A DNA stretch of 64,000 bases from Xenococcaceae cyanobacterium MO_167.B27 (GTDB lineage Bacteria; Cyanobacteriota; Cyanobacteriia; Cyanobacteriales; Xenococcaceae), in NCBI GenBank assembly GCA_030065935.1, contig JASJCP010000002.1, forward strand, positions 1 to 64,000, read 5' to 3'. The notes under the pieces are model-generated. The model ran no database searches. It saw only the letters and a program-made list of their open reading frames with translations, and was not told the DNA's origin. Numbering within the stretch: position 1 is the stretch's first letter; each line of letters opens with the position of its first letter. Made by a program: the position numbers and the translations under genes. Below, in pieces: positions 1 to 25,950 of this stretch.

Positions 1-50
1 AAAGGCTGGTATTTTAATAAAGCGCAAGTCCCTAAGCTCAACTGAAATGA

Positions 51-13440: not shown

Positions 13441-16400
13441 ATGACAAATATCTACGATAGAATTGCTAAACTACCTCCAGCTAAACGTAAACTTTTAGAA
13501 CAAAAACTCAAACAAAGAAATATTAGTAATTCTCAGCGCGAGATCATTCCTGACAGAGATAGACAGAGTAAAATCCCCTTATCTTCTGCTCAAATGCGAA
13601 TGTGGTTATTAGATAAGTTTGATCCAGGAAATCCAGCTTATAATCGTCCGACTAACTTAAGTTTAATCGGCAAGTTAGAGCTTCAAGTCTTACAGCAAAG
13701 TATTAATGAAATTATACGTCGTCATGAAATTTTAAGAACCAGTTTTCCTGCTGACAACAATGGTATCCCAAAACAAAAAATACATAATAATCTAACTTTA
13801 GACTTACCTGTAATCAATCTTTCCAATTTATCTGATGCAGAACAAGAAAACAAAGTTACAGAATTAGCTATCAAAGCAGCAAAATATACTTTTGATTTAA
13901 GCAAATTACCTTTAATTCAAGCTAGTATCTTAAAATTAAAATCAAACGAACATATACTGTTACTTAATTTTCATCATATTATTTTTGATGGTTGGTCAGC
14001 AGAAGTATTTTTAACAGAATTAAACTCTTTATACGCTGCTTTTATTCCAGGTAAATTATCGCCTCTACCAGAGTTATCAATTCAATATGCTGACTTTGCT
14101 ATTTGGCAACAAAAACAATTAAAAGATGGTGTATTTGATTCTCAATTAGCCTATTGGCAACAACAACTACAAGGAGAATTACCCGTCTTAGATTTACCCA
14201 CAGATCGACCTAGAGGAGGAACACAAACCTTTAATGGCGGTCGAGTTTGTCTTAATTTATCTCCAGAAATAACTAAATCTTTAAAAGCTTTAAGCCTAAG
14301 AGACAATACTACTTTATATATGACCTTACTCGCTGCTTTTAAGGTCTTACTATATCGCTATACTAACCAACAAGATATTATCATAGGCTCTCCCATTGCA
14401 GGACGCGATCGCGCTAAAACAGAATTTTTAATCGGTATTTTTATTAATACTTTAGCTATTAGAACTAAAATTAATCCCGATCTTACGTTTAAGCAATTTT
14501 TAGCACAAATATGTCAGATTACTTTAGATGCACAAAGTAATAAAGATATTCCATTTGATAAATTAATTGAAACTCTTAATATTCAACGTAATATCAATAT
14601 TAATTCAGTATTTCAGGTATTGTTTCAACTGAGAAATATGCCTAAAGCAGCGTTGAGCATCCCAGATTTAGAAATTAAAAATTTTTACTGTAATTTAGAT
14701 TCTGTAATGCTAGACTTGGCATTAGAGATTGAAGAAAATAACAATAAATTATTATGTATTATTAAATATAATAGTGATTTGTTTAACTCAATTACTATCG
14801 AGCGTATGGCTGGACATTTCCAGACTATATTAGAAGGAATTGTTACTCAGCCAGACAGTAAAATTCAGCATTTACCATTACTGACTCAAGCAGAAAAACA
14901 GCAAATACTAATCGATTGGAATAACAGTAAAGCTGATTACCCTCAAGATAAGTGTATCCACCAATTATTTGAAGCACAAGTAGCAAAAACTCCAGATGCT
15001 ATAGCTGTTGTTTATAAGGATAAAAAATTAACCTACAGAGAGTTAAATAATCGTGCTAATCAATTCGCTCATTACCTACAATCTTTAGGAGTAAAACCAG
15101 AAACTTTAGTAGGTATCTGTATCGAACGTTCGTTAGAAATGGTTATTAGTTTATTAGGAATTCTCAAAGCTGGTGGTGCGTATCTCCCTTTAGACCCTAA
15201 TTATCCCCAAGAACGTTTAGATTATATTTTAAAAGATTCTCAAATAGAAATATTAATTACAAAATTTCATTTACATAACAGTTCATTCCAGTGCCAATCG
15301 GTTATTTGTTTAGATACAGATTGGCATCAAATAGCAACTTATAGTCAAGAAAATGTAGTAAGTGAAGTAAAAACCAATAATTTAGTTTATGTAATTTACA
15401 CTTCTGGTTCGACAGGAAAGCCTAAAGGAGTAGCCATAGAACATCAATCATTAGTTAATTTTGTTCAAGCTGCGATCGCACAATATCAGATTACTCACAG
15501 TGATACTATCTTACAATTTGCTTCCATTGGTTTTGATACAGCGATCGAAGAAATTTACACTTGTCTAACTGTTGGTGCTACTTTAGTCTTAAGAACAGAA
15601 GAGATGCTAAGTTCTAGTGCTAAGTTTTTAAAACAGTGTCAAACTTGGAATATTACTGTTTTAGATTTACCCACCGCTTATTGGCATCAACTTACCAACG
15701 ATTTAACTACAAATAAACTATCATTACCTCCATCTCTGCGTTTAGTCATTATTGGGGGAGAAAAAGCCTTAGCTTATAAAGTAGCGTTATGGCAACAATA
15801 TGTAGGAGACTATCCTGAATTAATTAACACCTATGGTCCCACAGAAAGTACAGTAGTCACAACAGCTTATAAAATTACTACTAATACTGCTACGGATATT
15901 GATATTCCAATTGGTAAACCTTTAGCTAATTTAGAGTGTTACATTCTCGATCGCAATTTGCAACTATTACCTATGGGTATTCCTGGGGAACTTTATATTA
16001 CTGGAAAGGGATTATCTAGAGGTTATCTCAATCCTCCAGAATTAACTAGAGAAAAATTTATCAACAATCCATTTAACACCTCCTCTATATTATATAAAAC
16101 AGGGGATAAAGCTTTATATTTAGCTGATGGCAATATTCAGTTTTTAGGCAGAGTTGATAATCAAGTAAAAATTAGAGGTTTTAGAGTTGAATTAGGAGAA
16201 ATTGAAGCAATTTTACTAACTTATTCTCTTATTAAAGAGACAGTTGTTATCAGTACCGAAGTCAACCCAGGTGATTTACGTTTAGTCGCCTATTATGTCC
16301 CTAATCAAGCTCATAAAGTAGAAATTGAAGAGATTAGAAATTATTTAAGCTCCAGACTTCCAGAATATGCTATCCCTTCTGTTTTTATTTCTTTAGATAC

Positions 16401-19400
16401 TCTTCCTTTAACTACTAATGGAAAAATAGATCGGCGTAATCTACCTAATCCAGATTTCACAGTAAGACAAACTGATAAAAATTACATTGCTCCTAGTACA
16501 GAAATAGAAACTCAGTTAGCTAAAATTTGGACTAATGTTTTAAAGTTAGACAGAATAAGCATAGAAGATAATTTCTTTAATAATCTAGGGGGGCATTCTC
16601 TCTTAGCTGTACAATTAGTATCTCGGATTTCTCAAAAGTTAAAAATAGAGCTATCTCTCAACAAGATCTTTGAATTTCCCACAATAAGAGAATTAAGCCA
16701 AGAAATAGCCAGATTAGAGAAAACTAATTCTGAAGGGATTATACCCAGAGCTAGAGAAGATAACTTACCTCTTTCTTTTGCCCAAAGTAGGCTCTGGTTT
16801 TTAGAACAATTAGAACCAGGTAAGAGTACTTATAATATACCTTTTGCTTTTAGGATCTTAGGTGCTTTAAATATTACTGCTCTAAACGCCAGTCTGAATC
16901 AGATTCTACAACGTCATGAAGTATTACGTACCAGTTTAATTGCAGTAGAAGGAGAAACCCAACAGGTAATTACACCTCATATAAAAATAGATATTCCTGT
17001 CATTGATTTAAGCAACTATGGAGAAGCCAAGGCGGAAACTCAAGCACAACAAATTGTTCAAGAAGTAGCCAGAGAAACTTTTGATATAACCTTTACACCT
17101 TTACTCAAAGTTAAATTAATTCGTCTTAATAAGCATCAGCACTGGTTAGTGATTAATATCCATCATATTGCCTTCGATGGTTGGTCAAAAGATATTTTTT
17201 ATCGTGAGTTATCTGCACTTTATTCAGCCTATTGTAATTCTGACACTCCACCCCTTAGACCCTTACCCATTCAATACGCAGATTTTGCTTATTGGCAAAG
17301 ACAATACTTACAACAGGATAATATTAAATATCAATTTACTTATTGGCGCAACAAACTAGCTGGAGATTTACCCCGATTACAACTACCTACAGATTATCCT
17401 CGCCCTAAAGTTATTAGTTACAAAGGTGCAAGAGAAATCTTTGAAATAGATGCAGAACTAGCCACACAACTAAAACAACTTAGTCAACAGCAAGAAAGCA
17501 CTTTATTTATGACGCTGCTGACAGCATTTAAAGTACTATTGCATCGCTATACCAATCAAACAGATATTATAGTTGGCTCACCCATTGCAGGAAGAAATCA
17601 ACCAGAAATAGCAGATTTAATTGGCTTTTTTGTGAATACTTTAGTTTTACGTAGCCAAGTAAACCCAGAAGAGAATTTTACTACCTTACTCAATCAAGTT
17701 AAACAAACTGCTTTACAAGCCTATGAACATCAAGACATACCTTTTGAGAAATTAGTTGAAGAATTAAAACCTCAAAGAGATTCCCGTTATACTCCTCTGT
17801 TTCATGTTGCTTTCATGCTGCAAAATGCCTCTGAAACGCTAACACTATCTGACTTAGAAGTTACGCCCTTAAACCTAAAACAAGAAACAGCAAAATTTGA
17901 TTTAGCTCTATATTTAGAAGAAACTACCATAGGAATCAAAGGACGGATTTCTTACAGTACGGATTTATTTAAAGCTACAACAATTCAACGGATGGTCAGC
18001 CATTTCCAGATTTTACTACAAGGAATTGTGACTCAACCAACTCAAGCAATTTATCAGTTACCGCTACTAACTGAAGCAGAACAGCAGCAAATATTAGTAA
18101 ATTGGAATCAAACTCAGACTAACTATCCTCAAAAGTCTATTAATAAGTTATTTGAGATACAAGTCACTAAAAATCCTGATTCAATTGCTCTAGTTTACAA
18201 TGAACAGAAACTTACTTACCAACAATTAAACAGTAAAGCAAATCAGTTAGGGAGATACTTGCAAAGCGTTGGCATACAATCAGGGGATACAGTAGGGATT
18301 TGTTTAGAACGCTCTTGTGACAGCATAATTAGTTTACTAGCTATTCTCAAAACGGGCGGTGTCTATTTACCTTTAGATACTACTTATCCTCAAGAACGCC
18401 TCAATTTTATGCTTTCAGAGCCAGAAGTAAAAGTCTTGTTAACTAATACTTCTTTATCCCACAGATTTGACAATCAATTTCATAATCGAATTTGCATAGA
18501 TAGAGATTGGGATAAGATTGCTCAACAACCAGATAATAATCTTGATAAAGAGGTAAAACCAGATGATTTAGCTTACATCATGTATACTTCTGGTTCTACA
18601 GGAAAGCCTAAAGGAGTATGTATAAAGCATCGAGGCGTAGTCAGGTTAGTGAAAAATACTAACTATGCTCAATTTGATTCTCAACAGGTATTTTTACAGC
18701 TAGCACCTATATCTTTTGATGCTGCAACTTTAGAAATTTGGGGCAGTTTACTTAACGGTGCAAAACTTATTTTATATCCAGAGCGCACTCCTACTTTAGA
18801 AAAATTAGCTCAAATTATTCAGCAGCATCAAGTTACTTTCTTGTGGTTAACCGCAGCTTTATTTCATTTAGTAGTAGATGAACATATCACCGCTTTACAG
18901 CCAATCAAGCAGTTATTAGCAGGAGGAGATGTTTTATCTGTACCTCATGTCCAGAAAGTACTAGAAAACCTCGATAATTGTCAACTAATTAATGGTTATG
19001 GTCCTACAGAAAATACTACTTTTACTTGCTGTTATCCCATCCATCAATTAGATGAAAATTGTACTTCAATTCCTATCGGTAAACCGATTGCTAATACTCA
19101 AGTTTATATTTTAGATTCCTATTTGCAACCAGTCCCTATTGGTATTCCAGGGGAATTATATATTGCTGGAGATGGATTAGCACAGAGTTATTTTAATCGT
19201 CCTCGATTCAATCAAGAACGATTTATTAATAATCCTTATGGTCCAGGAAAATTATATAAAACGGGTGATTTAGTACGCTATCTAGATAATGGCAATCTTG
19301 AATTTATAGGCAGAATTGATAATCAAGTTAAAATTCGAGGCTTTCGTCTTGAATTAGGGGAAATAGAAGCAATGTTAGTCAAACATCCCCAAATTAAAGA

Positions 19401-20820
19401 TGCAATTGTTTTAGCCAAAGAAGCTATTTCAGGAGATAAAAAACTGGTTGCTTACCTAATATCTAACGAAAATAATCAACCTAGTAGCAAACAATTACAA
19501 GAATTTTTAGCGAACAACTTACCTAGCTATATGATTCCTCGTAATTACTTATTCTTAAAGCAGTTTCCCCTATCTCCAAATGGTAAGGTGCAGCGTCAAG
19601 CATTACCAACAGCTAAATTTAATACCACCGAATTAGCTCCTGAAAATATTGCTCCTCGTAACTATTTAGAAGCCAAACTAGCTCAAATTTGGCAACAAAT
19701 CTTAAATGTTCCTGCCATAAGTGTTAAAGATGATTTCTTTGCCATAGGAGGTAATTCTTTACTCTCTATTCGTTTAGTATCTGCTGTTGAAACAGCCTTT
19801 AAACAAAAAATTCCTGTAAGTACTTTTTTCCAATTATCAACTATTGAACAATTAGCAGAAGCCATTGACAAACTTCAACAAAAACCAACAACTAGAGAAA
19901 AATCTCTCTCTTCTATTTCTAATTCCTTCTCTTTGTATAAACTTACCGAAAAAGAACAAAATATGCTCTTAGCAAGTACTATCCGCAAAAAAAGAGCATT
20001 AGGGGATAAATCACTAGTAATGTTAGAAAAATCAGGAAATCCCAACCAAAGAAAACCTTTATTTTTCGTCTATCTTTTAGGAGACTTAGCTAAACATTTA
20101 CCCACAGATTTGCCTGTATATAATCTTACTGTCTGGACAAAAGTAGAAAGACCAGAGACTTTTGTGAAAGCTTTAGCTGCTCATTATGTCCAAGAAATTA
20201 GAAAAATTCAACCAGAAGGAGAATATTATATTGGTGGTTATTGTGTAGGTGGCTATGTCGCTTTAGAAATTGCTCGACAACTACAAGCTCAAGGACAAAA
20301 AGTAGCGAATTTAACTTTAATTCAAACCAAAGCTTTTGACCCTGTTTATCAGCATTATCAAGCTATCTTGCTCAAATTTGGCTATAAATATTGGCTCAAA
20401 GCTTTGAATTACGCCAATAGATTCAAGAAGTACAATTCTCAGGAAAAAATTACATCTATCCAAAATATCTTAACTAAAGTTGTTGCTAAAATCAGTTCCA
20501 AATTTGCTGCGAAACCTACAACGCAAACCCCAAGTAAATCCAATTTACAGCAAGCTAATGAGCATTATGAAGCAGAAATTCTCAATTCTTTAAAATCAGC
20601 AATGGCTTACTATCGCCCAGAATCTTACTCTGGTAAAGTAACTCTTTTTCTTGCTAGGCAAGGAACATTATATTCTCCCTTATTTCTTCAAGGTGGTTGG
20701 AATAATTTTTTTCAGGGAGAATTAAATACTTATATCATTCCTGGTAATCATACTGGAATCAATAAAGAACCCAATGTTATCTCATTAGTGCAAAAATTAA
20801 ATCAACATTTAACTCACTAA
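13441..20820 (+). CDS. Dimodular nonribosomal peptide synthetase with thioesterase
   Basis: 2459 residues, order C-A-PCP-C-A-PCP-TE. C1 has HHIIFDG at 178-184. A1 has YTSGSTGKPKG at about 653. PCP1 carries Ser1053 in 'LGGHSLL', with one extra Asn before the Leu. C2 has HHIAFDG at 1241-1247. A2 has YTSGST at 1715. PCP2 carries Ser2106 in 'GGNSLL'. The TE covers about 2190-2459. Aligning by eye to GrsA, I read pocket residues D-T-E-D-I-G-T-V-V-K for A1 (acidic pocket, perhaps a basic amino acid) and D-A-L-W-L-G-G-T-F-K for A2 (like Val/Ile codes); both are tentative. No epimerase or methylase domain is present. The leading C domain should accept the acyl starter from the ligase-carrier protein upstream. 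Confidence 0.95.
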   Translation: MTNIYDRIAKLPPAKRKLLEQKLKQRNISNSQREIIPDRDRQSKIPLSSAQMRMWLLDKFDPGNPAYNRPTNLSLIGKLELQVLQQSINEIIRRHEILRTSFPADNNGIPKQKIHNNLTLDLPVINLSNLSDAEQENKVTELAIKAAKYTFDLSKLPLIQASILKLKSNEHILLLNFHHIIFDGWSAEVFLTELNSLYAAFIPGKLSPLPELSIQYADFAIWQQKQLKDGVFDSQLAYWQQQLQGELPVLDLPTDRPRGGTQTFNGGRVCLNLSPEITKSLKALSLRDNTTLYMTLLAAFKVLLYRYTNQQDIIIGSPIAGRDRAKTEFLIGIFINTLAIRTKINPDLTFKQFLAQICQITLDAQSNKDIPFDKLIETLNIQRNININSVFQVLFQLRNMPKAALSIPDLEIKNFYCNLDSVMLDLALEIEENNNKLLCIIKYNSDLFNSITIERMAGHFQTILEGIVTQPDSKIQHLPLLTQAEKQQILIDWNNSKADYPQDKCIHQLFEAQVAKTPDAIAVVYKDKKLTYRELNNRANQFAHYLQSLGVKPETLVGICIERSLEMVISLLGILKAGGAYLPLDPNYPQERLDYILKDSQIEILITKFHLHNSSFQCQSVICLDTDWHQIATYSQENVVSEVKTNNLVYVIYTSGSTGKPKGVAIEHQSLVNFVQAAIAQYQITHSDTILQFASIGFDTAIEEIYTCLTVGATLVLRTEEMLSSSAKFLKQCQTWNITVLDLPTAYWHQLTNDLTTNKLSLPPSLRLVIIGGEKALAYKVALWQQYVGDYPELINTYGPTESTVVTTAYKITTNTATDIDIPIGKPLANLECYILDRNLQLLPMGIPGELYITGKGLSRGYLNPPELTREKFINNPFNTSSILYKTGDKALYLADGNIQFLGRVDNQVKIRGFRVELGEIEAILLTYSLIKETVVISTEVNPGDLRLVAYYVPNQAHKVEIEEIRNYLSSRLPEYAIPSVFISLDTLPLTTNGKIDRRNLPNPDFTVRQTDKNYIAPSTEIETQLAKIWTNVLKLDRISIEDNFFNNLGGHSLLAVQLVSRISQKLKIELSLNKIFEFPTIRELSQEIARLEKTNSEGIIPRAREDNLPLSFAQSRLWFLEQLEPGKSTYNIPFAFRILGALNITALNASLNQILQRHEVLRTSLIAVEGETQQVITPHIKIDIPVIDLSNYGEAKAETQAQQIVQEVARETFDITFTPLLKVKLIRLNKHQHWLVINIHHIAFDGWSKDIFYRELSALYSAYCNSDTPPLRPLPIQYADFAYWQRQYLQQDNIKYQFTYWRNKLAGDLPRLQLPTDYPRPKVISYKGAREIFEIDAELATQLKQLSQQQESTLFMTLLTAFKVLLHRYTNQTDIIVGSPIAGRNQPEIADLIGFFVNTLVLRSQVNPEENFTTLLNQVKQTALQAYEHQDIPFEKLVEELKPQRDSRYTPLFHVAFMLQNASETLTLSDLEVTPLNLKQETAKFDLALYLEETTIGIKGRISYSTDLFKATTIQRMVSHFQILLQGIVTQPTQAIYQLPLLTEAEQQQILVNWNQTQTNYPQKSINKLFEIQVTKNPDSIALVYNEQKLTYQQLNSKANQLGRYLQSVGIQSGDTVGICLERSCDSIISLLAILKTGGVYLPLDTTYPQERLNFMLSEPEVKVLLTNTSLSHRFDNQFHNRICIDRDWDKIAQQPDNNLDKEVKPDDLAYIMYTSGSTGKPKGVCIKHRGVVRLVKNTNYAQFDSQQVFLQLAPISFDAATLEIWGSLLNGAKLILYPERTPTLEKLAQIIQQHQVTFLWLTAALFHLVVDEHITALQPIKQLLAGGDVLSVPHVQKVLENLDNCQLINGYGPTENTTFTCCYPIHQLDENCTSIPIGKPIANTQVYILDSYLQPVPIGIPGELYIAGDGLAQSYFNRPRFNQERFINNPYGPGKLYKTGDLVRYLDNGNLEFIGRIDNQVKIRGFRLELGEIEAMLVKHPQIKDAIVLAKEAISGDKKLVAYLISNENNQPSSKQLQEFLANNLPSYMIPRNYLFLKQFPLSPNGKVQRQALPTAKFNTTELAPENIAPRNYLEAKLAQIWQQILNVPAISVKDDFFAIGGNSLLSIRLVSAVETAFKQKIPVSTFFQLSTIEQLAEAIDKLQQKPTTREKSLSSISNSFSLYKLTEKEQNMLLASTIRKKRALGDKSLVMLEKSGNPNQRKPLFFVYLLGDLAKHLPTDLPVYNLTVWTKVERPETFVKALAAHYVQEIRKIQPEGEYYIGGYCVGGYVALEIARQLQAQGQKVANLTLIQTKAFDPVYQHYQAILLKFGYKYWLKALNYANRFKKYNSQEKITSIQNILTKVVAKISSKFAAKPTTQTPSKSNLQQANEHYEAEILNSLKSAMAYYRPESYSGKVTLFLARQGTLYSPLFLQGGWNNFFQGELNTYIIPGNHTGINKEPNVISLVQKLNQHLTH

Positions 20821-20923: not shown

Positions 20924-22303
20924 ATGGGTTTAATTATTGCAGGAGAACGCTCGGGAGTAGGTAAAACAACTCTCACTTTGGCATTACTGGCGTTTCTTTC
21001 CGCTCAAGGTTACAGAGTTCAAGCTTTTAAAGTGGGTCCTGATTACATCGATCCGATGTTTCATACTGCTATAACAGGGATTCCGTCTCGCAATCTCGAT
21101 CCAATTCTAACTTCTCCTAATTATGTGCAATCTTGCTTTACTCGCCACTCTCAAGGAGCAGATTATGTGGTGATAGAAGGGGTGATGGGATTATTTGATG
21201 GGGTAAAATTTCAGTCTTCAATGGAAGATTATGCTAGTACCGCCCATGTTGCCAGAATTCTCAAGCTTCCTGTCGCTATAGTTATTGACTGTTCTCGTTT
21301 ATCTGGCTCGGTAGCTGCGATCGCTTACGGCTATTCTCGTCTCGATCCTCAAGTTCAAGTTGCTGGAGTAATTTTAAACAAAGTAGCAAGCGATCGCCAT
21401 TTAAGATTACTGAAATCTGCTTTAGCAAGAATTAAAATGCCAATTTTAGGGGTACTATTCCGCAATCAAGATATTTCTATCCCTGACCGCCATTTAGGGC
21501 TTGTACCGACAGCAGAACTACCACAAATGACATCTATCGCGGAAAAACTGGCAACACTGGCAAAAACTTGCTTTAACTGGGATTTACTATTACCTCTACT
21601 CAAAAGTGATAACCAAACTTCTATTACCCCGTCAGCATTCTGTGACAAATTTGAATCAAAAATTAAAATTGCCGTAGCACGCGATCGCGCTTTTAACTTC
21701 TACTACCAAGATAATCTAGACATTCTCGAAGAATTGGGAGCAGAATTAATCTTTTGGAGTCCCCTAGAAGACCAAAAATTGCCCCCAGATATTGCAGGAA
21801 TGTATTTTGGTGGGGGATTTCCTGAAGTTTTTGCCGAAGAACTTAGTGCTAATTATGCTGTACGCCAACAAGTCTATCAAGCCGTGGTTTCAGCAATGCC
21901 GATCTATAGCGAATGTGGTGGATTAATGTATTTATGCGATCGCCTAGTTGATTTTCAAGGCAAAGATTGGGAAATGGTAGGCGCAATTCCCACCACAGCT
22001 AGAATGAGTCAGCGTTTAACTCTCGGTTATCGTCAAGCCAGCCCCCTAAAAGAAAGTTGTTTAGTTGCTCCATCCTCTTGTTCTAGCCTTTGGGGACATG
22101 AATTCCATCGTTCTCAATTAGATATTTTGCCTCAATATCCCTTATGGCAAACTCAAGGCATCAGTAGCCAGACTCAGATATCCTATGAAGGTTGGCAAAT
22201 CAAACAAATTCATGCTTCTTATATTCATCTTCATTTTGGTGAGTCTAAATTTTTACCCCAAAGATGGCTCAAATCTTGCCTAAATTATAGAAATCAGTTA
22301 TGA
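20924..22303 (+). CDS. cbiA: Cobyrinate a,c-diamide synthase
   Basis: 459 residues. The N-terminal dethiobiotin-synthetase-like P-loop domain has 'SGVGKTTLTLALL' near residue 8. The C-terminal class I glutamine amidotransferase domain has the catalytic Cys331 in 'YSECGGLMYL'. The enzyme amidates the a and c side chains of cobyrinate using glutamine and ATP, an early corrin step of cobalamin synthesis. CobB is the aerobic-pathway name; cyanobacterial enzymes are usually listed as CbiA. No other cobalamin gene is near and I see no B12-box riboswitch in the 103 bases upstream. Confidence 0.93.
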   Translation: MGLIIAGERSGVGKTTLTLALLAFLSAQGYRVQAFKVGPDYIDPMFHTAITGIPSRNLDPILTSPNYVQSCFTRHSQGADYVVIEGVMGLFDGVKFQSSMEDYASTAHVARILKLPVAIVIDCSRLSGSVAAIAYGYSRLDPQVQVAGVILNKVASDRHLRLLKSALARIKMPILGVLFRNQDISIPDRHLGLVPTAELPQMTSIAEKLATLAKTCFNWDLLLPLLKSDNQTSITPSAFCDKFESKIKIAVARDRAFNFYYQDNLDILEELGAELIFWSPLEDQKLPPDIAGMYFGGGFPEVFAEELSANYAVRQQVYQAVVSAMPIYSECGGLMYLCDRLVDFQGKDWEMVGAIPTTARMSQRLTLGYRQASPLKESCLVAPSSCSSLWGHEFHRSQLDILPQYPLWQTQGISSQTQISYEGWQIKQIHASYIHLHFGESKFLPQRWLKSCLNYRNQL

Positions 22304-22304
22304 T
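22276..22304 (+). promoter_or_regulatory. Sigma-70-type promoter inside the end of cbiA
   Basis: TTGCCT (22276-22281) and TATGAT (22299-22304) are separated by exactly 17 bases, so a start near 22311 is expected. It overlaps the cbiA stop and points into the structured region that follows, where there is no large gene. Confidence 0.55.
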
Positions 22305-22310
22305 GTCTAT

Positions 22311-22600
22311 CAGTGACAAACAAAACCGTTTAGGGATATAGGAGGTGATGCCCATGATAGAAAGTAGTAAAAGCATGGGTCTCCTAGTTGATGGTAGTCG
22401 GCTGTGCGCCGAGGCTGTTCTCTAGCAACCGCCCAATAACTTCTTCGGAAGTTAAATAAGTGTCTGCTTGAGTTCCACTCGGCAGTCAGGCTTCAACTAG
22501 AAGACCCCACTAGACCGCCCCCACAAACTAATGATTTTTTTGGCTATTATTATTAGACCAAAGCGATCGTTACCTGTGGGGGCGGATAGTTTTATGTGTA
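22311..22600 (+). ncRNA. Candidate structured noncoding RNA
   Basis: The region folds by eye into many perfect stems. TAGGAG 339-344 pairs with CTCCTA 381-386 around CCCATG/CATGGG. A TCGGC/GCCGA hairpin lies at 398-412. A 7-bp UUCG-capped hairpin lies at 437-454. A bulged hairpin lies at 464-485. GTTGA 387-391 closes them with TCAAC 493-497. An 11-bp CCGCCCCCACA/TGTGGGGGCGG pair spans 22515-22585 (the three-digit positions omit the leading 22). A promoter lies upstream and a terminator at 22767-22816. A 23-codon frame (22354-22425) starts after GGAGG, but that site is buried in the first stem. I cannot assign an Rfam family; a HEARO/omega-RNA-like element is one possibility. Confidence 0.5.
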
Positions 22601-22766
22601 AGTAACAACTTTACGGGTGCAAACCGTTCGCCCTCACTCACCACTAACCAGTAACCACTAACCACAACAATATGACAATTGGTAAAGTGTCACTAAATAA
22701 TCCCAGACTTTCTAGTAAGCTCCCTATACTATTAATTGTGTGAGGAGTAAGTGTAAAAGAGAAAGG

Positions 22767-22816
22767 CTTTGGGGTCGAAACACGGAAAGACTCCCAAGGT
22801 CTTTTTCTTCTTTTTC
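22767..22816 (+). terminator. Rho-independent terminator of the candidate ncRNA
   Basis: CTTTGGGGTC pairs with GAC(T)CCCAAGG with one bulged T, followed by the T-rich run TCTTTTTCTTCTTTTT. It is oriented on the plus strand, where the only transcript to end is the one from the promoter at 22276 or read-through from cbiA. Confidence 0.6.
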
Positions 22817-22830
22817 AAGTATTTAATACA

Positions 22831-22857
22831 AAGGGGTTTGGCATCGCCAAACCCCTT
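22831..22857. terminator. Perfect 12-bp hairpin after the ABC exporter gene
   Basis: AAGGGGTTTGGC and GCCAAACCCCTT form a perfect stem with a three-base loop. It lies between convergent transcripts and could end both. The same GGGGTTTGGC hairpin occurs at 1002-1028, so it is also a dispersed repeat. Confidence 0.6.
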
Positions 22858-22914
22858 ATTGATTAATAGCCAAAAGCTAATAACTAACATCTGTCTTAAT
22901 CAAAAACTAAGGAC

Positions 22915-25900
22915 TTAGACAGAGGACTCTTGTTGCTGATAGAGATAGTAGTAACGACCTCTCAAAGCCATTAACTCTTCGTGAGTACCTTGCTCTACCA
23001 CTGAACCTGCGTCCATCATCACGATAACATCTGCATTTTTGATTGTTCCCAGACGGTGGGTGATAAAAAATACAGTGCGACCTTTAAGAGCTTCCTTAAG
23101 ATTGCGGGATACTTGTTGTTCTGTATTGTAGTCTAAGGCACTAGTCGCCTCATCCATGACTAACATAGCAGGTTGTTGTAGGATAGTACGAGCGATCGCA
23201 ATCCTTTGTCGTTGTCCTCCAGATAAAGCAGAACCCCGTTCCCCTACCCTGGTATTGTAACCATTAGGTAAGCCCATGATAAATTCGTGAGCAGCAGCAA
23301 TTTGAGCAGCAGCGATAATTTCTTCTGTTGTGGCATCAGGGTTAGTTAGAGCGATATTCTCCATGATTGTTCCTTCAAACAAGAGAGTTTCTTGGGGTAC
23401 TACTCCAATTTGACGGCGTAAAGAATACAGTTCCACACGGTTGATATCATAGCTATCAATGAGAATCCTGCCTGATTCTGGCTCATACAAGCGAGAAATC
23501 AATTTAGTGAGGGTACTCTTACCAGCACCACTTTGTCCTACTATGGCAGTGAAAGTTCCAGGGGGAATATCCAGATTTACCTTATTAAGTTGCAGGGGAC
23601 CAGTGTTTTTAAACCTGAATGAGAGATTTTCATATTTAACTGCCCCTTTAATAGCTGGCATAGGAATATTATTGCGGTCTTGTTCTCCTTCTTCTGGATG
23701 ATCGACGATATCTGCTAAACGTTCTAAGGATAATGCGGTTTCTTGGAAATTTTGCCACAACTGAGCCAAGCGCATAATGGGAGAAGTTACATAACCAGAA
23801 ATAATCCTAAAAGCAATTATCTGACCCAAAGTTAGTTTGCCATCTAGTACCAGATAAGCACCCATCCCAATGATTAAGACACGGGAAAGCTTGTTTAAGA
23901 AGCCACTAGCAGAACTAGCCAAAGTAGAAGTAATTACGGTTTTAAACCCAGTAGAGATGTAACGAGCATAGCGTTCTTGCCATTGCCAACGAGAACGTAA
24001 CTCAATATTTTGTGCTTTAACAGTTTGAATTCCTGTAAGTACCTCTACAAGATAGGATTGAGTTTCAGCATTTCGTTCTGCTTTAACTCGTAATTGTCTT
24101 CTGATAGTGGGAGAGAAGATTAGAGTTAGCGCAATAAAAATAGGAATAATACCCAAAGAAACTGCCGTCAGCAAAGGGCTATATAACAGCATTACCGCAA
24201 TATAAACCACAGAAAATACTGAATCCAGTACTACTGTGAGGGCTGTTCCTGTCAAAAACTGACGAATTTTCTCTAATTCATTAACACGGGTCGAAATTTC
24301 CCCTACTGGTCGCCGTTCAAAATAGCGCAATGGCAGACGCAGCATATGATCGATAATTTCTGAACCTAGAGCCAGGTCAATGCGATTGGTGGTGTCAACG
24401 AAAAGATAGGTTCTAAGAGTTGTTAGTAAGGCTTCAAAGACGTTGAGAGTAATTAGGAAGAAAACCAGATAACCTAGGGTATCAACACTATTTTGGCTAA
24501 TTACCCTGTCGATGATCACCTGAATCATTAATGGGTTGGCTAGAGCAAATAGCTGAACGAAGAAAGAAGCTACAAATACTTCAATTAAAACTCGCTTGTA
24601 CTTGTATAAAGAGGGTAAAAACCAACTCAAGCCAAAACGTTCTTGAGGCGTTTCTTTAGTTTTTTGTAGTAAAAGTACTTCTCCACCATCACCCCAAGTG
24701 GAAATAAAATCATCAGGTTTATAGCGACGTAATCCTAATTCGGGTACAGCGATAACTAACTCTCGTTCACTGATGGCATACACTAGAGCCAAGCTATCCT
24801 GCCAACGTACTAAACAAGGACCTTCTAGACGGGTGAAAGCTTTTGCAGGGATATTAATTAGTTGGGGATTTAAGCCCATCAACTCTGATACTGCACCACA
24901 TAAAGGTAAAGATAAAATACCTGTTCTTTGGAGTTGTTCGGAAAGAACACGACGGATTACCTCTTTGCGGAAGGGCATATTAAAGTACTTGCTCAACATT
25001 TGAAAGCAAGCCACACCCACATCTAAGGTCGTTCTACCTGCATAGAAAGGATAATCTTGTTTTTTACTAGCATCCTCTTCCCCTTCTTCGATAACAACTA
25101 CAGGTAGTGGTTCTTCTGCTTCTGCAACCTCTTCTCCCCATTCAATGGCGGAAGTAGTAGTACTGGAAATAGAGGAGGGTGATACAGGAACTATTGCTTC
25201 TTCTGTCTGGTTAACCTCGCTTTTGAACCATATACTACGAGGAATAGATAATAGACGAGCAGGTTTATCTCCTGTAACGACTATGGAACGACGATCTTTA
25301 GTAAATTCTAAGCGGGTGCCTACTGGAAATTCCTCAATCTTACCCCCACCACTAACTAACCAAATGCGATTATTGTCTAATAGGGGTTGAGTCAGTTCTG
25401 AGCTTAATTCATGCTCTCCTGGGGGTAGGTAGTAAATTTCTGATGCTTCGGCTGCTTCTATTGCGAGATTTTTTAGTTCCCAATCTCCTTGAGCTTCTTT
25501 TTCTAACTGAATTCCCAGAAGATCGAATATTTCTATATTAGCAGGGCGATCGCGAAATTCTTGCCGTAAATGAGGGTATTTATCTAAAAGTTCCAGAAAA
25601 TAGTCATTCTCTAGAGCTAGACAGACAACTTCTGTACTAGCCATAGCTGTTTCACAGGGTATATTCCTCGCCAGGTTAATCCAGCCTATGATTTGCCCTG
25701 GTTTCAGTTTATCCACAGTGGTGGGCATTTTGGTACGGGGGTCGTAACCAAGGATTCGCACTTCTCCTTCGGAGATAATAGCGACTTGTCCCTGCATTTT
25801 TTCCCGCATGATCATTACTTTCCCAATCCCATATCTCAGAGGTTGCAGATTGTTGGCAAGTCTAGTAATTTCTTCTTGAGGGAGTTGATTAAATTGAGGA

Positions 25901-25950
25901 ACAAGAGACAAGAATTGTTCGACAAGTTTAGTTGTACTTGTATTACTCAT
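22915..25950 (-). CDS. ABC exporter with cNMP-binding and degenerate C39 domains
   Basis: 1011 residues. Domains in order: a cyclic-nucleotide-binding-like domain (about 1-130); a linker with a second cupin-like segment; an acidic stretch; a C39-peptidase-like domain (about 300-430); six-helix ABC membrane domain (about 450-720); and the ATPase with Walker A 'GQSGAGKST', signature 'LSGGQRQR' and Walker B 'LVMDEATSALD'. The C39 domain reads 'DVGVACF' where the catalytic Cys of 'DCGxAC' should be, and its His is missing, so it should bind substrate but not cleave it, as in HlyB. It should export a protein or peptide in a type I system, perhaps with the isomerase encoded just upstream. No HlyD-like partner is visible nearby. 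Confidence 0.88.
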   Translation of the reverse strand: MSNTSTTKLVEQFLSLVPQFNQLPQEEITRLANNLQPLRYGIGKVMIMREKMQGQVAIISEGEVRILGYDPRTKMPTTVDKLKPGQIIGWINLARNIPCETAMASTEVVCLALENDYFLELLDKYPHLRQEFRDRPANIEIFDLLGIQLEKEAQGDWELKNLAIEAAEASEIYYLPPGEHELSSELTQPLLDNNRIWLVSGGGKIEEFPVGTRLEFTKDRRSIVVTGDKPARLLSIPRSIWFKSEVNQTEEAIVPVSPSSISSTTTSAIEWGEEVAEAEEPLPVVVIEEGEEDASKKQDYPFYAGRTTLDVGVACFQMLSKYFNMPFRKEVIRRVLSEQLQRTGILSLPLCGAVSELMGLNPQLINIPAKAFTRLEGPCLVRWQDSLALVYAISERELVIAVPELGLRRYKPDDFISTWGDGGEVLLLQKTKETPQERFGLSWFLPSLYKYKRVLIEVFVASFFVQLFALANPLMIQVIIDRVISQNSVDTLGYLVFFLITLNVFEALLTTLRTYLFVDTTNRIDLALGSEIIDHMLRLPLRYFERRPVGEISTRVNELEKIRQFLTGTALTVVLDSVFSVVYIAVMLLYSPLLTAVSLGIIPIFIALTLIFSPTIRRQLRVKAERNAETQSYLVEVLTGIQTVKAQNIELRSRWQWQERYARYISTGFKTVITSTLASSASGFLNKLSRVLIIGMGAYLVLDGKLTLGQIIAFRIISGYVTSPIMRLAQLWQNFQETALSLERLADIVDHPEEGEQDRNNIPMPAIKGAVKYENLSFRFKNTGPLQLNKVNLDIPPGTFTAIVGQSGAGKSTLTKLISRLYEPESGRILIDSYDINRVELYSLRRQIGVVPQETLLFEGTIMENIALTNPDATTEEIIAAAQIAAAHEFIMGLPNGYNTRVGERGSALSGGQRQRIAIARTILQQPAMLVMDEATSALDYNTEQQVSRNLKEALKGRTVFFITHRLGTIKNADVIVMMDAGSVVEQGTHEELMALRGRYYYLYQQQESSV

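Follow-up and report, generated by a model that had tools for sequence, protein, structure and literature searches.

Two small RNAs downstream of cbiA in a cyanobacterium: a probable Sye_sRNA1 homologue with a conserved short reading frame, and a Yfr2/Cyano-1 RNA

The spacer that follows cbiA in the cyanobacterial genome studied here raises the question of what is encoded at positions 22276–22816 of the window, by which we mean the whole stretch of 64,000 nucleotides that was analyzed. A sequence-only reading had described this interval as one self-contained structured RNA, complete with promoter and terminator, holding no gene except a 23-codon frame with a sequestered ribosome site, and belonging either to a known class that had gone unrecognized, such as 6S or a HEARO/omega-like RNA, or to a new one. 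The signal is real, and it consists of two separate RNAs, RNA A and RNA B, arranged head to tail on the plus strand in the spacer that separates cbiA from a convergent ABC-transporter gene (Table 1). As an account of a self-contained unit bounded by promoter and terminator, the description fits RNA A and fails for 22276–22816 as a whole: RNA A ends at ~22593, and the T-run thought to close a single unit belongs to RNA B, a Cyano-1/Yfr2 RNA. Further upstream, window positions 13441–20820 contain a 2459-aa ORF that resembles, by eye, a two-module non-ribosomal peptide synthetase with a terminal thioesterase.

Table 1. Features of the cbiA–ABC-transporter spacer and its flanks, in window coordinates.
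Feature	Position	Strand	Basis or remark
cbiA	20924–22303	+	CbiA and GATase_3 domains
Promoter-like site TTGCCT-17-TATGAT	22276–22304	+	overlaps cbiA stop codon; predicted start ~22311
RNA A, ~283 nt	22311–22593	+	5′ end predicted from promoter, 3′ end from terminator
5′ leader box ACCGTTTAGGG	22325–22335	+	alignment A1; conserved
Extended Shine-Dalgarno (SD) site AGGAGGTGAT	22340–22349	+	4 nt before ATG
ORF, 23 codons, MIESSKSMGLLVDGSRLCAEAVL, stop TAG	22354–22425	+	ORF reading; homologous loci
Rod 5′ arm, inside ORF	22377–22422	+	consensus fold of A1
UUCG-capped 7-bp hairpin, rod tip	22437–22454	+	direct reading; region highly variable in relatives
Rod 3′ arm	22470–22507	+	covariation count on A1
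RNA A terminator CTA-GA-CCGCCCCCACA ... TGTGGGGGCGG-A-TAG-TTTT	22510–22593	+	49-nt loop, conserved asymmetric internal loop
TAACCAC-type heptamer repeats	22634–22673	.	between RNA A and RNA B; many genome copies
RNA B, Cyano-1/Yfr2-type, then T-rich tail to ~22816	22734–22809	+	RF01701, 54.2 bits vs gathering score 41
ABC-transporter gene, convergent	22915–25950	-	flanks RNA B on its 3′ side

RNA B is typical of the Yfr2/Cyano-1 family: it shares the UGUGUGAGGAGU motif and differs from the family in nothing notable. The Rfam search that had been proposed as a check assigned the 3′ part of the interval to RF01701 and gave no credible match for RNA A to any class of Rfam 15. Both classes named as candidates were discarded: 6S RNA (RF00013) is not matched anywhere in 22000–23100 at E ≤ 10, and the 6S RNA of this genome lies elsewhere (G000:C255:42099–42283); HEARO and omega RNA have no Rfam match at E up to 10, and the flanks are cbiA and the ABC transporter. 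The guess that a known class had gone unrecognized was sound, in that RNA B is Cyano-1/Yfr2 and RNA A is very probably Sye_sRNA1. Another genome holds three tandem Yfr2/Cyano-1 copies within ~400 bases (G007:C105:3189–3593). In the window, a strong palindrome, perhaps a bidirectional terminator, separates RNA B from the ABC-transporter gene (22820–22868, core GGGGTTTGGC-ATC-GCCAAACCCC).

Used as a query, the whole finding matched 58 of 60 genomes at E ≤ 0.01 (own genome counted), mostly in split form, with query 1–223 at one place and the Yfr2 part at another. Among the genomes compared, RNA A and RNA B adjoin only in the window’s genome and in congener G001; in congener G002 they lie on different contigs, in congener G003 only the Yfr2 part was matched, and in G004–G015, as in G002, the two are widely separated or sit on different contigs. 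In the window’s own genome the same query found no second copy of RNA A, and its 41 further matches all fall at query 327–382, equivalent to window 22630–22685, in the TAACCAC-type repeat. A mobile element was considered and rejected, with one RNA A copy in the genome and nothing found by blastn among plasmids and phages; one pattern for RNA A had no hit in viral contigs.

The promoter with 17-base spacing that had been reported over the cbiA stop is present as described. Among 42 distinct upstream sequences from cbiA-linked relatives, 41 contain its general form, TTGNNN-16..18-TANNNT, where shuffles average 2.4 and reach 7 at most (relatedness uncorrected); in psbD-linked upstream sequences (1/25; shuffle mean 2.1) and in the remaining contexts (7/90; shuffle mean 6.2) the form occurs only at chance level. 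By eye, psbD-linked loci have -10-like sites further upstream, and their RNA A may start there, with an extra 5′ hairpin (AACCCAGAG ... CTCTGCC), unlike the cbiA-linked form. The covariance model R1, which includes the window among its own sequences, placed RNA A at 22312–22595 with 232.7 bits. The leader box reads ACCGYTYAGG in many relatives and is absent from Cyanobiaceae-type forms.

At the other end, the terminator helix comprises 15 pairs, of which 8 change on both sides, with 95.5% of cells paired in alignment A1. Its internal loop is nearly fixed (CTA-[GC]A-CC ... GG-A-TAG-T), columns 260–266 of A1 reading CTAGACC in 37/56 sequences and CTACACC in 15/56. Of the 183 loci collected with a regular expression for the SD site, the start ATG and a Ser motif soon after it, 154 have the terminator 3′ motif; these gave 61 representatives, of which 56 are in A1 (L121, L168, L190, L198 and L212 excluded), so that the conservation of the terminator in A1 is partly by construction. 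An automatic terminator scan of the finding, limited to loops of 8, returned none; the loop of RNA A is far longer (Table 1). The T-run of RNA A in the window is four T only.

The perfect stems named in the sequence-only reading exist, namely the UUCG-capped hairpin and an 11-bp stem at 22515–22525/22575–22585; a 15-nt arm pair at 22377–22391/22493–22507 is 93% complementary. The region 22304–22620 folds with z = −6.02 on the plus strand and −5.96 on the minus strand, values so close that the fold alone does not assign the strand. The consensus of the 56 sequences in A1 is a long rod followed by the terminator. In the window the rod pairs 22377–22381 with 22503–22507, 22383–22392 with 22492–22501, 22397–22403 with 22484–22491, and 22408–22422 with 22470–22483. 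Covariation against homologues, a check also suggested earlier, bears this structure out: for 27 of the 48 pairs of rod and terminator, one or more of the 56 sequences have both partners changed, compared with 15.3 pairs in shuffles, counts that are favored by the derivation of the structure from A1 itself. Cells with two-sided change number 219 versus 64.3 in shuffles, 95.1% of 2683 cells are paired versus 88.5%, and sliding the structure by one column drops pairing to 48–50%. A three-segment switch, conceived from repeated CCGGC segments, was rejected: the two rod helices explain the changes, and the alternative local hairpin within the ORF has two-sided change in 2/5 pairs. A weaker switch in RNA A is possible.

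The 23-codon frame also exists, and the view of the interval as free of genes does not stand, the short frame itself being conserved. An ORF of 17–24 codons lies behind a GGAGG site in 91/91 credible loci, whether these came from blastn or from the covariance model, with lengths of 17, 23 or 24 aa. It is kept in 54/54 blastn loci (23 aa in 45, 24 aa in 9) and in 18/18 further blastn loci, both sets found with no ORF pattern, and in 19/20 covariance-model loci, where the model contains the SD site and the exception, L261, is taken as spurious. The long form AGGAGGTGAT appears in 179/183 collected loci, most of them picked by a pattern that includes it; some deep lineages lack it and have a shorter GGAGG-type site. 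Among the matches listed, L078–L194 were found by a pattern holding SD site and ATG, so that conservation of both is partly by construction there, and L093, L132, L136 and L142 were removed from this set as chance matches. With an assumed 16S 3′ end as the anti-SD sequence, the SD duplex energy is −19.6 kcal/mol, and the best value among 34 ORFs of the window (starts taken as the first ATG) is −9.0; a search for the 16S gene in the window’s assembly did not find it and also missed some control genomes.

The supposed sequestration of this site found no backing. The hairpin that would hide it (CCCAUG/CAUGGG) has two-sided change in 0/6 pairs, though 92.9% of cells pair, and energy folding predicts the SD site to be unpaired with a mean of 0.49 (above 0.5 in 31/61 sequences, 0.39 in the window); this half accessibility counts against the translated reading.

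By nucleotide similarity, homologues of RNA A were found in 79 of 244 genomes of the phylum, and by R1 in 143 of 386 at E ≤ 0.01. The 143 comprise 119 with E under 1e-20, 16 of divergent form and 8 that are doubtful; weak R1 hits outside oxygenic cyanobacteria were discounted, and L261, the one of the doubtful eight that was inspected, lacks the rod’s conserved segments. All 16 divergent forms come from family f41, a group of small genomes that we take to be probably the Cyanobiaceae. In all of the eight forms that were inspected, the frame is 17 aa long and of the type MSSSCLTQGLLIAENAG; a frame-start pattern matched 37/121 f41 genomes, and 12/12 f41 loci from that pattern have a 17-aa frame with stop TGA. 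A well-conserved peptide, ..SC..[QK]GLL[IF].E.., was noted in Cyanobiaceae-type loci L243–L250 and L263–L274. The Cyanobiaceae-type terminator has a similar asymmetric internal loop of other sequence (CGA-GA-GCCCC ... GGGGC-A-TCG in several). Among 20 listed genomes unmatched by R1, with 223 more beyond, 7 belong to the window’s order, 11 to f41 and 2 to other families.

The two commonest upstream neighbors among 167 loci are the cbiA cluster (47, window counted) and the psbD cluster (26); 45 loci have no ORF of at least 80 aa in the available stretch, and the remainder have other genes. These neighbor clusters, like the dehydratase and porin clusters below, were each named from one member.

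RNA A very probably belongs to the Sye_sRNA1 family of cyanobacteria, an assignment made by position and cbiA extension. When cbiA is read past its stop, the frame continues for nine codons in the window and 21 in L052. Four loci, L195, L196, L197 and L212, come from a genus that is presumably Synechocystis: L196 and L197 add 23 codons and the stop itself, 24 in all; L195 adds 41; and L212 gave no upstream cbiA frame. In L195 the two frames, cbiA and the short ORF, share one phase, and the read-through covers the whole short frame. The count of 24 matches the report for Synechocystis PCC 6803, in which the Sye_sRNA1 homologue is fused to sll1501 with 24 added codons (PMC6091082). The main text of that paper presents Sye_sRNA1 as the most abundant sRNA of Synechococcus elongatus UTEX 2973, with counterparts TU475/TU2045 in Synechocystis and homologues mostly downstream of psbD or cobB/cbiA, and treats it as non-coding, giving no function (Tan et al. 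2018, PMC6091082). RNA A shares with the published description the position downstream of psbD or cobB/cbiA, the wide cyanobacterial spread and the conserved secondary structure, the last found here by covariation in A1; L251, with psbD upstream, may be the counterpart of the UTEX 2973 RNA. As for abundance, the accessible text of another report gives the top rank in Synechocystis 6714 to the transcript Ncr0700, whose level peaks in darkness (PMC5386190), so that the label ‘most abundant’ varies with strain and condition. The literature search returned nothing with the peptide string SRLCAGAVL, and no further paper on RNA A under TU475/TU2045. As far as searched, the conserved frame, the rod overlapping it and the divergent picocyanobacterial forms are new; the RNA family itself is known.

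The account that we consider likely is that RNA A is a Sye_sRNA1 member of ~283 nt, translated and acting in trans, beside an ordinary Yfr2 RNA B. Judged from sequence, translation of RNA A is the most likely case, possibly with a dual function. It would be transcribed as a unit of ~283 nt, 30S subunits would bind it through its anti-SD complement, and the short frame would be translated. Because the second half of the ORF forms the rod 5′ arm, which corresponds to codons 8–23, translating ribosomes must melt RNA A: each ribosome passing the frame would open the rod, which would re-form behind it, and the state of RNA A would report, or depend on, ribosome loading. RNA A would then act in trans, as RNA, as peptide or as both, an action that is more likely than attenuation in cis since the neighbors change between lineages and no plus-strand gene follows in the window. 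A more specific proposal, that RNA A senses or buffers ribosome availability through 30S loading and translation through the rod, the act of translation mattering more than the peptide sequence, strikes us as rather improbable.

The alternative that survives best, though we think it unlikely, is a tiny mRNA whose product is the 17–24-aa peptide, with rod and terminator serving as stabilizing 3′ structure. It is in keeping with the strong SD site and the conserved frame and stop, and with a peptide core, S-[SC] and a following G, that is recognizable across deep lineages. Against this, selection on the amino acids appears weak: dN/dS over 62 pairs is 0.61 in frame and 1.21 and 1.57 for the two shifted readings, a contrast that favors the frame, but set beside column shuffles the value of 0.59 (62 pairs of 23-codon ORFs) is only modestly low. 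The length and C-terminus of the peptide vary (17 vs 23–24 aa): codon 18 is mostly Cys but Arg, Ser, Trp or stop at some loci, and the stop at this codon in some lineages means that the last six residues are dispensable there. The rod, moreover, covaries in fine detail across the ORF, and four ORF peptides had no match in Pfam or NCBIfam, which carries little weight at 23 residues. A ribosome-arrest peptide is unlikely as well, codons 18–23 being missing in several lineages. Two side observations concern the frame’s 3′ portion. In the deep-lineage loci L198, L199, L251, L254 and L259, the stop at codon 18, which gives a 17-aa frame, falls within a rod bulge; in L203–L205 (family f14), the frame is one codon shorter and the usual terminator motif is absent by eye.

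Attenuation in cis, whereby a leader peptide and the terminator would set how often transcription runs on into the downstream gene (pterin dehydratase or porin in many genomes), is quite improbable. The downstream ORF lies on the same strand in 142/167 loci, a dehydratase-cluster gene comes next in 62/167, a porin-cluster gene stands within two ORFs in 95/167, and in L076 the dehydratase begins shortly 3′ of the T-run. Such an arrangement is disfavored by the variation of the downstream genes with lineage (dehydratase, porin, PALP-type enzyme, DnaJ), by an opposite-strand ORF in 19/167 loci, and by the window itself, in which the next large ORFs 3′ of RNA A are all on the minus strand. The consensus folds, in which alternatives were searched non-exhaustively, offer no supported helix competing with the terminator, and the ORF contains no codon run for a single amino acid. 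Cysteine-responsive attenuation, an idea taken from the PALP-type, cysK-like neighbor, was rejected, the Cys codon not being conserved.

Still lower in our estimation stands a purely non-coding sRNA, the open frame being a by-product of strong constraint on the RNA. Sye_sRNA1 was indeed published as an sRNA (main text of PMC6091082), and the rod is held at the nucleotide level, as are the Ser-Ser codons, whose near fixation as AGTAGT in A1 points to RNA-level constraint; the in-frame dN/dS is also not clearly under that of column shuffles, 46/500 of which are as low as 0.59. The frame itself argues the other way. The 22 codons after the ATG contain 0 in-frame stops across the 54 blastn loci, versus a stop in 49/54 and 54/54 for the two other frames of the same stretch, and 0/1000 column shuffles are stop-free (median 42/54 with a stop). 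Set beside the dN/dS shuffles, this indicates clearer conservation for the absence of stops than for the amino-acid sequence. Gaps within the ORF in A1 are all of 3 nt, at two sites, and those 3′ of the stop are mixed (row counts, not events); three different stop codons are used in the 183 collected loci (TAA 100, TAG 81, TGA 2), and the SD site is strong and normally spaced. Finally, a single transcript of ~500 nt over 22276–22816 is highly improbable: the shared strand, the short T-run of RNA A and the like arrangement in congener G001 speak for it, and the conserved RNA A terminator helix and the separation of the two RNAs in G002 and G004–G015 speak against it.

If RNA A is translated, as the preferred reading holds, its class would shift from sRNA to mRNA or dual-function RNA, and a widespread cyanobacterial gene for a 17–24-aa peptide would have been missed in the libraries searched. 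The alignment and covariance model of RNA A would also fill a gap in Rfam. SgrS/SgrT and RNAIII are dual-function sRNAs, and RNA A resembles them as a structured RNA with a short frame, its translation and target being hypothetical. RNA A differs from Sye_sRNA1 as published in its predicted length, ~283 nt versus ~200 nt on a Northern blot, and in its conserved ORF, of which the paper’s main text makes no mention (PMC6091082). A further parallel is Yfr103 of marine picocyanobacteria, described in the accessible text of PMC5069720 as a dominant RNA with conserved structure and no assigned function, as RNA A is, and present in Synechococcus CC9605 as seven paralogues of 290–328 nt. Compared by description, the Cyanobiaceae-type homologues of RNA A measure 178–221 nt and occur as one hit per genome, in contrast to the seven paralogues of Yfr103.
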